Shown: positions 41,946 through 45,844 of the stretch, in pieces
Layout: each line of letters opens with the position of its first letter
Numbering within the stretch: position 1 is the first letter of the stretch
From: Gelidibacter salicanalis
Lineage (GTDB): Bacteria; Bacteroidota; Bacteroidia; Flavobacteriales; Flavobacteriaceae
Length of the DNA stretch: 64,000 nucleotides
Direction of reading: 5' to 3'
Assembly: GCF_007997285.1 (NCBI RefSeq)
Contig: NZ_VORX01000004.1
Span: 124,001-188,000, forward strand
Made by a program: the position numbers and the translations under genes
The notes under the pieces: generated by a model
What the model saw: only the letters and a program-made list of their open reading frames with translations
The model's database searches: none
Told to the model about the DNA's origin: nothing

Positions 41946-43334
41946 TTATTGTTGTGAAGTTAAAAAACTGCGGTCGCGGATGAGGCGTTTCTTCCAATAG
42001 CCCGTTTTGAAATAGATGAAGGCTATAATTCCGGCAATAAAATTAGAGATAGGGAAAGACCACCAAATGCCTTCAGGACCATATCCTAAGGTGTTGGCAA
42101 GAACATAAGCCAGCGGAAAGCGCACCAGCCACAGACTCATAATAGATATAAACATAGATGCTTTGGTAAAGCCCGCACCGTTAAAAGTGCCATTCATCAC
42201 TTGTTGTAAGCCTAAGAATCCGAAACTGATGGACATGATTTTTATAAATAAAGCACCATCTTTAATTACCTGAAGGTCGTTCGGAATAAAAAACGCCGTT
42301 AAAGGTTCAGCCACCAAAAACATGATAAGCCCTAATCCCGTAAACCCAAAAAAGGCTAATTTAGCACTCAACCGTGCTACTTTTTCTGCCCTTTTAATCT
42401 TTAATGCGCCGATATTCTGACCCACTAAAGATGTGGTGGCAATCCCAAGGCCTAATGCAGGAACCACAATAAAACTCAGCATTCGAGCTCCAATGCCATA
42501 GGCGGCGACAATATCACTACCAAAACTCGTCACAATCACCATCATAAAGGTCATCCCCAACGCTCGCGTTGATTGTTCAATACTCGCGGGTAAGCCTAAA
42601 TTAAAGGTTCGTTTAAGGTTTTCCATATTGAAATACATGGATGATAGCGAAATTTTAATTCCGTGTTTTCCCCTAAATAAAATGACCAATCCAATGGTGG
42701 CGGCTACAGCTTGCGTAATCACACTGGCTACGGCAGCCCCAGCCACGCCGTAACCTTTTATAGGGCCGTAACCATATATAAACAGCGGATCGAGCACTGC
42801 GTTTAGAATTACGGTACACAATACGATATAAACCGGGAGCATAACATTTCCGATGCCCCGCATGAGTGATTGAAAAATGAAGAAAATGAATAAGAATACG
42901 AAGCCTAGAGATGATACTTCAAAATAGGTGGTGGAGTCTTCAATAATATCTGGGCCTGCGCCGATAACTTTCATCAGAGGCCCTGCAGCAAAATAACTGA
43001 CTATGGCCAAAACAATGGAGGTTAAGAAGATTAAAAACACGCTTTGGGAGGAGCTAAAATCAACCATCTTTTGATTACCAGCGCCTTGGTACCGTGCCAC
43101 CATAACGGTGCCGGCCAAAGTTAGACCGGCTCCTATAGAGAGTACTAAAAACAGCAATGGGAAACTTAAACTCACTGCGGCTACCGCATCTGCACCAATT
43201 CTTCCCAACCAAAATGTGTCGATCAGCTGATAGGCCGATTGCAGAATGTTGGCGAAAATTATAGGTAACGCTAAACTCAGTAGTGAGTTAATCAGTTTTC
43301 CTTCGGTGAATTTATTTTTCTTATTGGTACTCAT
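41946..43334 (-). CDS. MATE-family multidrug efflux transporter
   Basis: 462 aa, 12 helices, MatE domain twice. Starts FTEGKLINSLLSLALPIIFANILQSAYQLIDTF with the AYQLIDTFWLGRIG signature. Exports cationic compounds with Na+ or H+. On the minus strand a TAATTTTG -7 box (43347-43340) lies only a few bases before the ATG, implying an almost leaderless mRNA. Confidence 0.93.
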   Translation of the reverse strand: MSTNKKNKFTEGKLINSLLSLALPIIFANILQSAYQLIDTFWLGRIGADAVAAVSLSFPLLFLVLSIGAGLTLAGTVMVARYQGAGNQKMVDFSSSQSVFLIFLTSIVLAIVSYFAAGPLMKVIGAGPDIIEDSTTYFEVSSLGFVFLFIFFIFQSLMRGIGNVMLPVYIVLCTVILNAVLDPLFIYGYGPIKGYGVAGAAVASVITQAVAATIGLVILFRGKHGIKISLSSMYFNMENLKRTFNLGLPASIEQSTRALGMTFMMVIVTSFGSDIVAAYGIGARMLSFIVVPALGLGIATTSLVGQNIGALKIKRAEKVARLSAKLAFFGFTGLGLIMFLVAEPLTAFFIPNDLQVIKDGALFIKIMSISFGFLGLQQVMNGTFNGAGFTKASMFISIMSLWLVRFPLAYVLANTLGYGPEGIWWSFPISNFIAGIIAFIYFKTGYWKKRLIRDRSFLTSQQ

Positions 43335-43453: not shown

Positions 43454-44668
43454 TTATTGGTTATGGGTTAATTCGAAAAAATCACGTTTTCCAATTTTGA
43501 TTTTCTTTTCTGCGGTCAACATGATTTCTGTAAAAGGATCCGTTTTCTTTTCATTATCAATCTGTACCGCACCACTTTCAATTAAGCGTCTGATTGCTGA
43601 TTTGGTCAATTTTCCTTTTAGTTGCGCACACAGTTCAACCAAGCTTAACGTTGAATTTTCACTGTGAATGTCCCCAATCAAAACAGGAACAAAACTTTTC
43701 TCTTCAAAATTTTTATTTTGAAATTGATTGACGAAAAAATTCTCAGCTGCTTCCGCTTTAGTAGGCGTGTGGTATTGTGAAATAATGTTTTTAGCAATGA
43801 TTTTTTTAATTGCCATCGGATTTTCACCTGCACCCAGACGCGCGGTGATGGCTTGTTTTTCAGGTATTGAAAAATCGGTCGTTAAATGCAGGAACTCTTC
43901 AATTAAACCATCCGGAATAGACATTAATTTACCAAACATGTCATTGGGTGCATCTGTCAATCCGATGGTGTTGTTTAGAGACTTGCTCATTTTCTCTTTA
44001 CCGTCTAAACCTTTCAACAATGGCATACACATGATAATTTGCGGATTCATGTCAAAGGTTTCTTGCAATTGTCGGCCCATGGTACAATTAAAAAGTTGGT
44101 CCGTACCACCCATTTCAATGTCTGCTTTAATTTCTACGGAATCAAAACCTTGAAGAATTGGGTATACCAGTTCGTGCATGCCAATTGGAGAGTTTTCACT
44201 AAAACGCTTGTTAAAATCGTTTCTGTGCATGAGCTGGGCGACGGTTACTTTAGATAAAATTTGGATGACTTCAGTAAAGGACAATTTGTCCAACCAATCC
44301 GAATTAAAGACGATGCTAACCTTGTCAATATCTATAATTTTAGACAATTGCTTAAGGTAGGTTTCAGCATTGTGCTGCACGTCGGCGGCTGATAAAGGTT
44401 TCCTGCTTTTATTTTTTCCCGTCGGATCTCCGATGCGTGCAGTAAAATTTCCCACTAAAATGACAATTTGGTGGCCCAAATCCTGAAATTGCTTCAGCTT
44501 TTTTAAAACCACGGCGTGTCCCAAATGTAAATCTGGAGCCGTAGGATCAAAACCAAGTTTGATAATCAGTGGTCGATTTTCGGTTTTAGCGAGTTTCAAT
44601 TTGTCTTCCAAACCAGTTTCTGGAAGAATGATTTCTACATGTTCTTTTAATTTTGATAGTGTTTCCAT
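43454..44668 (-). CDS. tyrS: Tyrosyl-tRNA synthetase (TyrZ-like subtype)
   Basis: 404 aa class I synthetase that charges tRNA-Tyr. HLGH (48-51), the Tyr-site GGTDQLFN (187-194), KMSKS (226-230), then a C-terminal S4 RNA-binding domain (about 340-404). The opening GFDPTAPDLHLGHAVVLKKLKQFQDLGHQ is the TyrZ type rather than E. coli-like TyrS. It is preceded by a Tyr-rich leader ORF and an intrinsic terminator (44735-44839 and 44683-44709), so expression should respond to Tyr-tRNA charging. Confidence 0.95.
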   Translation of the reverse strand: METLSKLKEHVEIILPETGLEDKLKLAKTENRPLIIKLGFDPTAPDLHLGHAVVLKKLKQFQDLGHQIVILVGNFTARIGDPTGKNKSRKPLSAADVQHNAETYLKQLSKIIDIDKVSIVFNSDWLDKLSFTEVIQILSKVTVAQLMHRNDFNKRFSENSPIGMHELVYPILQGFDSVEIKADIEMGGTDQLFNCTMGRQLQETFDMNPQIIMCMPLLKGLDGKEKMSKSLNNTIGLTDAPNDMFGKLMSIPDGLIEEFLHLTTDFSIPEKQAITARLGAGENPMAIKKIIAKNIISQYHTPTKAEAAENFFVNQFQNKNFEEKSFVPVLIGDIHSENSTLSLVELCAQLKGKLTKSAIRRLIESGAVQIDNEKKTDPFTEIMLTAEKKIKIGKRDFFELTHNQ

Positions 44669-44682
44669 AGTTTTTAAAAATG

Positions 44683-44709
44683 AAAAAGCCCAAGCTAATG
44701 CTCGGGCTT
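44683..44709 (-). terminator. Attenuator terminator in the tyrS leader
   Basis: On the minus strand AAGCCCGAGC (44709-44700), loop ATTA, GCTTGGGCTT (44695-44686) with one G-U pair, then TTTTT. It lies 15 bp before the tyrS ATG, so it would stop transcription of tyrS itself. Confidence 0.88.
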
Positions 44710-44734
44710 AAGGTTATTGTATGTATTTAAAGTA

Positions 44735-44839
44735 TCAGATGTTACTTGAAGTATATGCATAGCCATTCCGAGCAGGTCGTATCTGATAATAATACGTGCT
44801 AAAAAATGGAAGGCGTAAAATGCTGTTTAATCTCTTCAT
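44735..44839 (-). CDS. Tyrosine leader peptide of tyrS (34 aa)
   Basis: ATG at 44839, TGA at 44737-44735. Peptide with the run TYYYQ at residues 15-19 and Tyr again at 27 and 29: five Tyr in 34 residues. Codons 16-18 are TAT TAT TAT. The segment TGCTCGGAATGGCT (44774-44761), just downstream of the Tyr run, can pair with AGCCCGAGCA of the terminator 5' arm (about ten pairs with a bulge). A ribosome stalled at the Tyr codons would leave it free, form the antiterminator and allow tyrS transcription. Translation through would let the terminator form. Confidence 0.85.
   Translation of the reverse strand: MKRLNSILRLPFFSTYYYQIRPARNGYAYTSSNI
44761..44774 (-). promoter_or_regulatory. Antiterminator strand in the leader ORF
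   Basis: TGCTCGGAATGGCT on the minus strand: TGCTCG pairs with CGAGCA and GGCT with AGCC of the terminator region (44707-44699), leaving GAAT bulged. It lies about 15 nt beyond the TAT-TAT-TAT codons, right for release by a stalled ribosome. Confidence 0.65.
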
Positions 44840-44848
44840 GATGCGCTG

Positions 44849-44879
44849 CAAAGGTAAATACTAAATTGCTGTTGTGCAA
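44849..44879 (-). promoter_or_regulatory. tyrS promoter: TTG-N20-TACCTTTG
   Basis: -7 box TACCTTTG (44856-44849) is a full TAnnTTTG match, with a -33 TTG at 44879-44877 twenty bases upstream. Predicted start is about 44843-44845, so the leader peptide would be nearly leaderless. Confidence 0.65.
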
Positions 44880-45070
44880 CCAGTTTTAACAAAACTACTG
44901 TTGGTGGTTGTGTAGTGGGGTAGACGCGAATCCTCATAATAACCTAAATAAAGGTCTCTAGCCAGGCGCTTTAAGGTGGCTTGTTTGGATTTTAAAGTGG
45001 AAAAATTTGGCAATACCTTGCAAAATGTTCAATTTTGAACTGCTCTTTGAAAGTAGAGCTATAAGAACTT
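44880..45070. other. Divergent gap between tyrS leader and mtfA
   Basis: No gene or repeat seen. Contains CAATTTTG close to a -7 box about 40 bp before mtfA, one mismatch from consensus. Confidence 0.3.
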
Positions 45071-45844
45071 ATGGTATATATAATTGTTTTAATAGTAGGC
45101 TTGGTATTTGGGATTCATTTTTATAGAAAATCGCAGCGTCGCAGCGTGAAGCCCTTTCCCAAGCATTGGCGCGAATTGTTGAATACACATGTATTGTATT
45201 ATCAAAAATTACCTAAGGAAAAGCAACCTGTTTTTGAGCAGCGAATGATGCAATTTTTGAGTGAAGTCTACATTGATGGTGTAGACGTGGAGATCGAGGA
45301 TTTGGATACTGTTTTAATTGCGGCAAGTGCCGTCATTCCCGTATTCGGATTTGAGGAATGGCATTATAGTAACTTAAGTGGGATTTTAGTCTATCCAGAT
45401 AATTTTAATGAAGACTTGCAATTTGGCACTGGGGATTCCGCTCGACATATTGGAGGCGTGGTGGGCAACGGACGTTTTGAAAAACAAATGATCCTTTCTA
45501 AAAAAGCCCTACATCATGGCTTTAAGAATACTACGGATAAGCAAAATACGGGCATCCATGAATTTGTGCATTTAATTGATAAGTTGGACGGTGCGACAGA
45601 TGGCATTCCCGAGCGATTGTTAGCGCACCAATATAGCATCCCATGGCTTAATTTAATCCATAAAGAAATGGAAGCCATCAATGATGACAAATCTGATATT
45701 CGTGCTTACGGAGGCACAAAACAAGCAGAATTTTTCGCCGTAGCTTCAGAATATTTCTTTGAGCGACCGGATTTGTTCAAAAGAAAACATCCAGAACTTT
45801 ATGATATGATGGTGCGTAGTTTTAAACAACCAATAAAGCGTTAA
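45071..45844 (+). CDS. MtfA-like zinc metallopeptidase (M90)
   Basis: 257 aa with one N-terminal helix (1-18). Zinc motif HEFVHLID (HExxH, near residue 168) with the downstream ligand region EFFAVASEYFFERP, and a conserved FEEWHYSNL block. E. coli MtfA is a peptidase that controls the glucose transporter regulator Mlc; Bacteroidota lack that circuit, so substrate is unknown. The anchor helix is usual in Bacteroidota versions. Ends at a strong terminator. Confidence 0.9.
   Translation: MVYIIVLIVGLVFGIHFYRKSQRRSVKPFPKHWRELLNTHVLYYQKLPKEKQPVFEQRMMQFLSEVYIDGVDVEIEDLDTVLIAASAVIPVFGFEEWHYSNLSGILVYPDNFNEDLQFGTGDSARHIGGVVGNGRFEKQMILSKKALHHGFKNTTDKQNTGIHEFVHLIDKLDGATDGIPERLLAHQYSIPWLNLIHKEMEAINDDKSDIRAYGGTKQAEFFAVASEYFFERPDLFKRKHPELYDMMVRSFKQPIKR

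Follow-up and report, generated by a model that had tools for sequence, protein, structure and literature searches.

A candidate leader-peptide attenuator with a conserved peptide upstream of a second tyrosyl-tRNA synthetase gene in Gelidibacter salicanalis and its relatives

On the minus strand of a 64-kb stretch of Gelidibacter salicanalis DNA (the window, i.e. the whole 64,000 nucleotides analysed), a tyrosyl-tRNA synthetase (TyrRS) gene is preceded by a short open reading frame with three consecutive tyrosine codons and by an intrinsic terminator. The arrangement raises the question of how this gene, termed tyrZ to denote the leader-bearing tyrS of the window, is controlled, and which part of the control is played by the leader RNA and which by the peptide that it encodes. 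As judged from comparative sequence data, it is quite probable that a ribosome-mediated transcription attenuator sensing Tyr-tRNA controls tyrZ, which appears to be a spare TyrRS gene. The features of the locus, in window coordinates, are the following.

44877..44879, minus strand: TTG, -33 like element as read from the sequence, 20 nt before the -7 element
44849..44856, minus strand: TACCTTTG, -7 like element (TAnnTTTG), 9 nt before the leader ATG
44735..44839, minus strand: leader open reading frame of 34 codons plus TGA, MKRLNSILRLPFFSTYYYQIRPARNGYAYTSSNI
44789..44836, minus strand: leader codons 2-17, conserved as the peptide K-x-L-N-x-I-L-R-L-P-F-F-S-x-Y-Y
44808..44815, minus strand: strand 1 part a, CGCCTTCC (codons 9-11), which can pair with GGAATGGC at the end of and just past strand 2
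44797..44800, minus strand: strand 1 part b, AGCA, which pairs with TGCT of strand 2 in many Flavobacteriaceae-type leaders
44786..44794, minus strand: Tyr codons 16-18, TAT TAT TAT
44768..44774, minus strand: strand 2, TGCTCGG, antiterminator arm and complement of strand 3
44699..44705, minus strand: strand 3, CCGAGCA, common to antiterminator and terminator
44683..44709, minus strand: intrinsic terminator, hairpin AAGCCCGAGC-ATTA-GCTTGGGCTT (44709-44686) with a T-run to 44683
43454..44668, minus strand: second tyrosyl-tRNA synthetase (tyrZ), 404 aa, NCBIfam TIGR00234, 335 bits

Most of this layout had been proposed in an initial annotation. The promoter TTG-N20-TACCTTTG is located at 44879-44877 and 44856-44849 with the spacing of 20 nt, the 34-codon frame indeed carries two Tyr codons (27 and 29) in addition to the three TAT codons, and the complementarity of TGCTCGG and CCGAGCA is confirmed at 44774-44768 and 44705-44699; the GC-rich hairpin with its T-run is likewise recovered, at a distance of 14 nt, not 15, from the tyrZ start codon (44668). 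The 231-nt leader region is moderately stable upon folding (z -2.16; 5 of 200 shuffles equally stable). T-box RNAs bind tRNA directly, and none was present among the nine Rfam matches obtained at E up to 5 for window 44400-45100. All nine stay below the gathering score, and a Leu_leader match at the locus was discarded, being read as terminator likeness. The neighbouring genes encode a MATE efflux protein 3' of tyrZ (window 41946-43334; TIGR00797 above cut-off, a SolL model at 402 bits below cut-off) and, divergently before tyrZ, a weakly MtfA-like protein (window 45071-45844; 63 bits, below cut-off).

The tyrZ product is nearest in sequence to the solved TyrRS 6bqy and 1h3e. A further tyrS, L001 (436 aa, 380 bits), is found in the same genome, as is a trpS (L003; TIGR00233, 235 bits). 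No LRLP leader exists in the 300 nt upstream of this standard tyrS; a 22-codon GTG frame with a Tyr pair before it was rejected as a leader because it ends just past a promoter-like element, TATCTTTG, that lies inside it. For 34 of the relatives' genomes described below, picked to spread over genera, the inventory is the same: 33 each hold an open frame of 430-499 aa, the leader-bearing TyrRS and a TrpRS-size match, and the remaining one (G322) has the long frame and the TrpRS-size match in pieces. Ten long frames were fetched and eight scanned, all of which are tyrS, including the G322 piece; a standard TyrRS is encoded elsewhere in these genomes.

The leader-bearing TyrRS is rare. An even sample showed it in 5 of 299 genomes of the bacterial family and 2 of 236 genera, and among 395 genomes of the phylum relatives at an identity of at least 64% occur in three, all three with the leader. 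A TyrRS match at E 1e-60 is held by 273 of these 395 genomes, and the LRLP leader was seen in none of 27 inspected TyrRS genes from other parts of the phylum (L157-L183; 44-47% identity to tyrZ). One of them, L180, is preceded by a 27-codon GTG frame with YYY (VKSCERTIIFYNRILTTKYYYHVSTAK), possibly an unrelated Tyr leader. In G621, one of the five genomes of the family sample, the tyrZ match (L093) contains seven in-frame stops and the leader is kept, as if the gene were decaying there. A plasmid search matched 149 records, none at an identity of at least 60%. Inspection of the tyrZ neighbours in the 25 largest clusters revealed flanking genes that are common only within Chryseobacterium or within Flavobacterium. 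Because presence is patchy and no flanking gene in these clusters is common beyond one genus, the data fit a horizontal spread of leader and gene as a unit. As far as genome comparison tells, tyrZ is a second, patchily distributed TyrRS and not the general tyrS of flavobacteria, and for that reason, contrary to the initial annotation, its leader is no stand-in for the T-box as a general tyrS control. If the proposal made here is right, so patchy a distribution of a spare TyrRS would point to some selective agent directed at the standard TyrRS, and keeping a spare enzyme under this kind of control is reasonable where the standard one can be inhibited.

Relatives of tyrZ were fetched from genome contigs with the TyrRS protein, not the leader, as query, and the best 80 of 146 were retained. 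They derive mostly from Chryseobacterium and Flavobacterium, and further from Arenibacter, Gelidibacter, Aequorivita, Winogradskyella, Oceanihabitans, Vaginella, Weeksella, Faecalibacter, Profundicola, Sphingobacterium, Rufibacter and MAGs. The leader MKxLNxILRLP[FY]F-S-x-YY is present in 79 of the 80; that of L011 (Sphingobacterium) has diverged (MRHLDNMLPFPFYGTYYYK...), with the Tyr pair still there. In 79 of the 80 relatives an in-frame L-R-x-P motif is found 144-170 nt upstream of the start of the TyrRS match. When 79 relatives and the window are tabulated residue by residue (80 sequences, L011 left out), Lys2, Leu8, Arg9, Pro11, Phe13, Tyr16 and Tyr17 are invariant and Leu4, Asn5, Ile7 and Leu10 are kept in 79. 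Two invariant Tyr codons, 16 and 17, therefore precede the TyrRS gene in 80/80 tabulated leaders. The expected conservation of the Tyr run thus holds for this pair and not for codon 18, which is Tyr in just 30 of 80. As the alignment stands, the conserved unit is the peptide MKxLNxILRLPFFSxYY, not the Tyr run alone.

The leader peptides of G569 and G341, which belong to the same genus as the window, are identical to those of the Gelidibacter records L009 and L015. Four leaders (L090, L091, L155 and L156) stand outside the counts, L090, L091 and L156 duplicating the peptides of L009, L015 and L057. A scan of 295 genomes of the class with the leader pattern, at most one mismatch being allowed, returned the own genome and two identical matches in G248; one of the latter (L086) adjoins simple-repeat DNA, has no TyrRS frame in its 3030 bases and was dismissed as chance. 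The shorter pattern LNxILRLP gave 37 match rows in 37 genomes, 33 before tyrZ and 4 elsewhere, against 2 for a reversed control pattern, and two of the four were inspected and rejected as not leader-like.

The RNA elements were evaluated on a set of 83 sequences (80 relatives, the window, L092 and L093) and, for covariation, on 33 representatives. A scan recovered a terminator between leader and tyrZ in 82 of 83 sequences (79 of the 80 relatives), and for the remaining one, L028, it was recognised by eye in the alignment. Among the representatives, 97.9% of the cells of the terminator stem are paired compared with 93.2% in shuffles, and 25 cells have both sides changed compared with 7.8 (reached in 0 of 500 shuffles); the number of pair types, one of five measures, does not exceed the shuffles. 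The antiterminator stem beats all 500 shuffles in three of the five measures, namely in paired cells (94.4% versus 91.4%), cells changed on both sides (13 versus 5.4) and covariation (0.236 versus 0.170), each with 0/500, and not in the other two, pairs with two-sided change (2 versus 1.9; 351/500) and pair types (499/500). Slid registers of the antiterminator are paired to 13-51%.

Pairing of the antiterminator arms was also assessed by duplex energies, for which no CGG was required of strand 2. The region past the Tyr pair (nt 58-80 of the leader frame) and the terminator 5' arm form a duplex of -12.7 kcal/mol on average (n = 83) versus -6.4 kcal/mol for same-arm shuffles, and L093 is the single sequence weaker than -8 kcal/mol; L092 and L093 are without a canonical strand 2. 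A strict parser accepted 75 of the 83 sequences, dropping L015, L022, L028, L048, L072, L092, L093 and the window; it required CGG and CCG, which fixes three of its seven strand 2:3 pairs in advance. In the 75 parsed sequences, one pair alternates between C-G (28) and T-A (47) and is never broken. Strands 2, 3 and 4 change jointly between GCTCGG / CCGAGC / GCTCGG and GTTCGG / CCGAAC / GTTCGG, and L075 has TGCCCGG / CCGGGCA at strands 2 and 3. Of the features that the initial annotation proposed to look for in relatives, the Tyr-rich leader is encountered in 79 of 80 and, with a diverged peptide, in L011, and joint change of the stems among the representatives. Swapping strand 2 among sequences reduces the pairs merely from 6.6 to 6.2 of 7, and the strand types are therefore largely compatible. 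Strand 2 is read in differing frames, as S-A-R or R-S-G, and is thus kept as RNA.

Strand 1 is built from the leader itself, and its form differs between groups: in the Flavobacteriaceae type UUCC and AGCA can pair with GGAA and UGCU around CGG, and in the Chryseobacterium type GUCUUCC can pair with GGAAGAC. Strand 2 is paired upstream with P >= 0.5 in 81 of 81 sequences. Its mean upstream pairing probability is 0.81 compared with 0.65 when codons 2-17 are shuffled and is higher in 67 of 81, a modest effect. Strand 2 begins at nt 63-66 of the frame in the 75 parsed leaders, and the 3' edge of a ribosome lies about 15 nt past the first P-site nucleotide. With this footprint, strand 2 sits at the 3' edge of a ribosome that holds Tyr16 in the P site and Tyr17 in the A site. 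Masking the RNA to nt 61 leaves strands 2 and 3 paired in 33/33 representatives (6-10 pairs); folding from nt 40 gives this pairing in 32/33 as well, and the fold therefore does not tell the stalled from the free state.

In typical attenuators, residues outside the control codons are free to vary. To the tyrZ leader this does not apply, as seen from codon changes counted by Fitch parsimony on the tyrZ tree (82 tips; L093, with its broken frame, left out). Codons 2-15 underwent 121 synonymous and 63 nonsynonymous changes (N/S 0.13, possibly in part an RNA-level effect), codons 4, 5 and 7-14 alone 98 and 25 (N/S 0.07), and the Tyr pair 10 and 0; for comparison, the tyrZ enzyme itself has 5930 and 2512 (N/S 0.11). 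Codons 18-28 show 26 synonymous and 185 nonsynonymous changes (N/S 2.54), indels, which raise nonsynonymous counts, being ignored. In a reduced set of 19 widely sampled tips, about one for each genus with three labelled Chryseobacterium, N/S is 0.20 before versus 2.46 after the Tyr pair. One leader family served as control, that of the hisG leader MKFIQSHHHHHHICT of the own genome, followed throughout the bacterial family: of 49 genomes with a match 30 loci were fetched and 4 dropped for orientation, and all 26 usable loci have an HHH leader before hisG. Here, the five codons before the His run have 4 synonymous and 39 nonsynonymous changes (N/S 2.25) and those after it 4 and 51 (N/S 2.78; indels ignored). 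In the own genome the element is a classical His leader (L124, about 1284-1331) followed by a hairpin with a T-run.

Peptide and RNA contributions to this pattern can partly be separated. Per nucleotide, third codon positions have 9.6 changes and positions 1/2 have 3.1 (p 4e-5). The excess persists among paired nucleotides alone (2.7 versus 10.1, p 1e-4) and is not significant among unpaired ones alone (3.8 versus 8.0, p 0.084; 10 versus 3 nt), and part of the bias may stem from wobble at certain paired third positions. Codon choice differs from that of tyrZ: Tyr16 is TAT in 80 of 80 leaders (36% in tyrZ), Ile7 ATA in 72 (13%), Arg9 CGY in 80 (10%), Phe13 TTC in 74 (22%) and Asn5 AAC in 70 (32%). 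Given this preference for codons that tyrZ uses in the minority of cases, part of the conservation is probably RNA-level; strand 1 may explain some of it, and RNA pairing may even lie behind much of the pattern. The view that codons 4-14 are conserved purely as peptide was dropped, given this bias and the pairing of codons 6-7, 9-11 and 14-15. Because the codons before the Tyr pair nevertheless change in a protein-like manner, mostly at third positions even when paired, the nascent peptide may join in the stall. Peptide-level conservation reaches up to the presumed stall codon as in arrest peptides, with the reservation that the unpaired nucleotides alone give no significant signal.

Bacteroidota promoters follow a consensus of -33 and -7 elements, and transcription starts some 5-8 nt past the -7 element. 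As a -7 like element is situated 9 nt from the leader ATG, the mRNA probably starts at or almost at this ATG and is leaderless or nearly so. Of 83 leaders, 51 have TAnnTTTG at a distance of 4-9 nt upstream of their ATG, compared with 22 of 4150 shuffles; the exact motif is absent from the 60 nt in 31 of 83 leaders, and 26 leaders have its relaxed form alone. Among the His leaders, the motif stands before the hisG leader ATG (7-8 nt) in 2 of 26, which sets the two kinds apart. For Flavobacterium psychrophilum, PMC9723704 gives leaderless mRNAs as just 5.5% of those counted.

On this basis we propose a scenario in which transcription would start at or just before the leader ATG and a ribosome would load at once. 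With plentiful Tyr-tRNA, the ribosome would pass the Tyr pair, strands 1:2 and 3:4 would form, transcription would terminate and tyrZ would be off. When Tyr-tRNA becomes scarce, by Tyr starvation or inhibition of the standard TyrRS, the ribosome is expected to stall with Tyr16 or Tyr17 at the A site, thereby blocking the pairing of strand 1 and holding ILRLPFFSx in its exit tunnel. Strand 2, just ahead of the 3' edge of the stalled ribosome, would then pair with strand 3 and transcription would enter tyrZ. The stall and its dependence on Tyr-tRNA are what we infer here from the position of the codons and strands. Attenuation by Tyr, as formulated in the initial annotation, thus has good support from conservation and from stems that stay paired as their sequences change, with the amendment that the gene presumably controlled is a second TyrRS.

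We consider it an even chance that ILRLPFFSxY, as a conserved nascent chain inside the tunnel, contributes to the stalling of the ribosome. If so, the leader might be a hybrid switch, in which MKxLNxILRLPFFSxYY acts as an arrest peptide that primes the stall at the two Tyr codons, and a small drop of Tyr-tRNA, caused for instance by a rival's TyrRS inhibitor, would suffice to induce a horizontally spread, possibly inhibitor-resistant spare TyrRS. We put this reading forward tentatively, as somewhat short of an even chance; if true, attenuation and nascent-chain arrest, which are usually taught apart, would cooperate in one leader. An ordinary trp/his-type attenuator with the same core, in which codons 4-14 are kept solely as strand 1, is a fair possibility as well, though less likely than not. 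It would account well for the high mean pairing probability at codons 6-7, 9-11 and 14-15, for the upstream pairing of strand 2 in every sequence folded and for the biased codon choice. It accounts less well for the excess of third-position changes that persists among paired nucleotides (the test on unpaired ones not being significant), for a partner arm past codon 18 that varies freely in amino acid whereas the 5' arm does not, and for the His leader of the same bacterial family, which at N/S 2.25 has no such pattern.

A nascent chain might instead bind a small molecule, be it free tyrosine or an agent that inhibits TyrRS or the ribosome, and stall at the Tyr pair in the manner of TnaC, which stalls with Trp as ligand. 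That residue conservation stops at Tyr17, as it does at the stall site in known arrest peptides, and that the target is a spare TyrRS would agree with such a ligand sensor; nothing indicates a ligand, however, and Tyr-tRNA offers a simpler explanation for a TyrRS gene preceded by two invariant Tyr codons, so that we regard the ligand sensor as improbable. Still far less credible is a leader that is released as a working small peptide, with the hairpin as an ordinary terminator without a switch. The protein-like change in codons 2-15 and the Tyr pair would be expected of it, but the C-terminal half is variable and read in different frames, strand 2 stays complementary to the terminator, and 33 of the 37 LNxILRLP matches (37 genomes) lie before tyrZ, the two inspected among the other four not being leader-like.

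The attenuator proposed for tyrZ shares the leader frame, control codons, terminator and alternative stems with the leader-peptide attenuators of trp, his and phe genes, which are built from these elements, and with the hisG leader of its own genome. It differs in having just two invariant Tyr codons, a probably (nearly) leaderless start and conserved codons before the control codons (N/S 0.13 versus 2.25 in the His leader). Streptomyces coelicolor offers the nearest precedent with its auxiliary TrpRS gene, which is reportedly under ribosome-mediated attenuation (Vecchione and Sello 2010): there as in our proposal, a second aminoacyl-tRNA synthetase is switched on by a ribosome stalled at codons for its own amino acid. 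The tyrZ leader differs from it in using Tyr, in belonging to another phylum and in its conserved peptide before the control codons. By function, the closest counterpart is tyrZ of Bacillus subtilis, a second TyrRS selective for L-Tyr against D-Tyr, for which PMC9437257 states control by a T-box and a MarR regulator. Both would be spare TyrRS genes controlled by Tyr-tRNA supply, presumably so in our case, but the gene studied here has a translated leader instead of a T-box match. TnaC and other regulatory arrest peptides likewise conserve residues up to the stall site, which for the Tyr leader is a predicted one. In the latter the Tyr codons themselves are an obvious signal, and stall and ligand are known for the TnaC kind, whereas the case for tyrZ is made from sequence.

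No description of a Tyr leader or a tyrS attenuator in Bacteroidota was found in the open PMC literature; as far as this literature shows, the present one would be the first Tyr leader-peptide attenuator proposed for the phylum. For F. psychrophilum, PMC9723704 reports hints of attenuation by leader peptides ahead of amino-acid operons; it also describes structured 5' regions for aminoacyl-tRNA synthetases, its main text naming conserved ones that include alaS, hisG and pheA, not tyrS. A pheA leader had been sought in the own genome as a second control and none was recognised. The region before this pheA (L184, about 1089-1400) contains three units at a spacing of 110 nt, each with a short GTG frame VKRSFYxFEERNKxN and an inverted repeat rich in GC, of which CCCGCCATAGGGCGGG is an example; they may constitute a repeated regulatory element.
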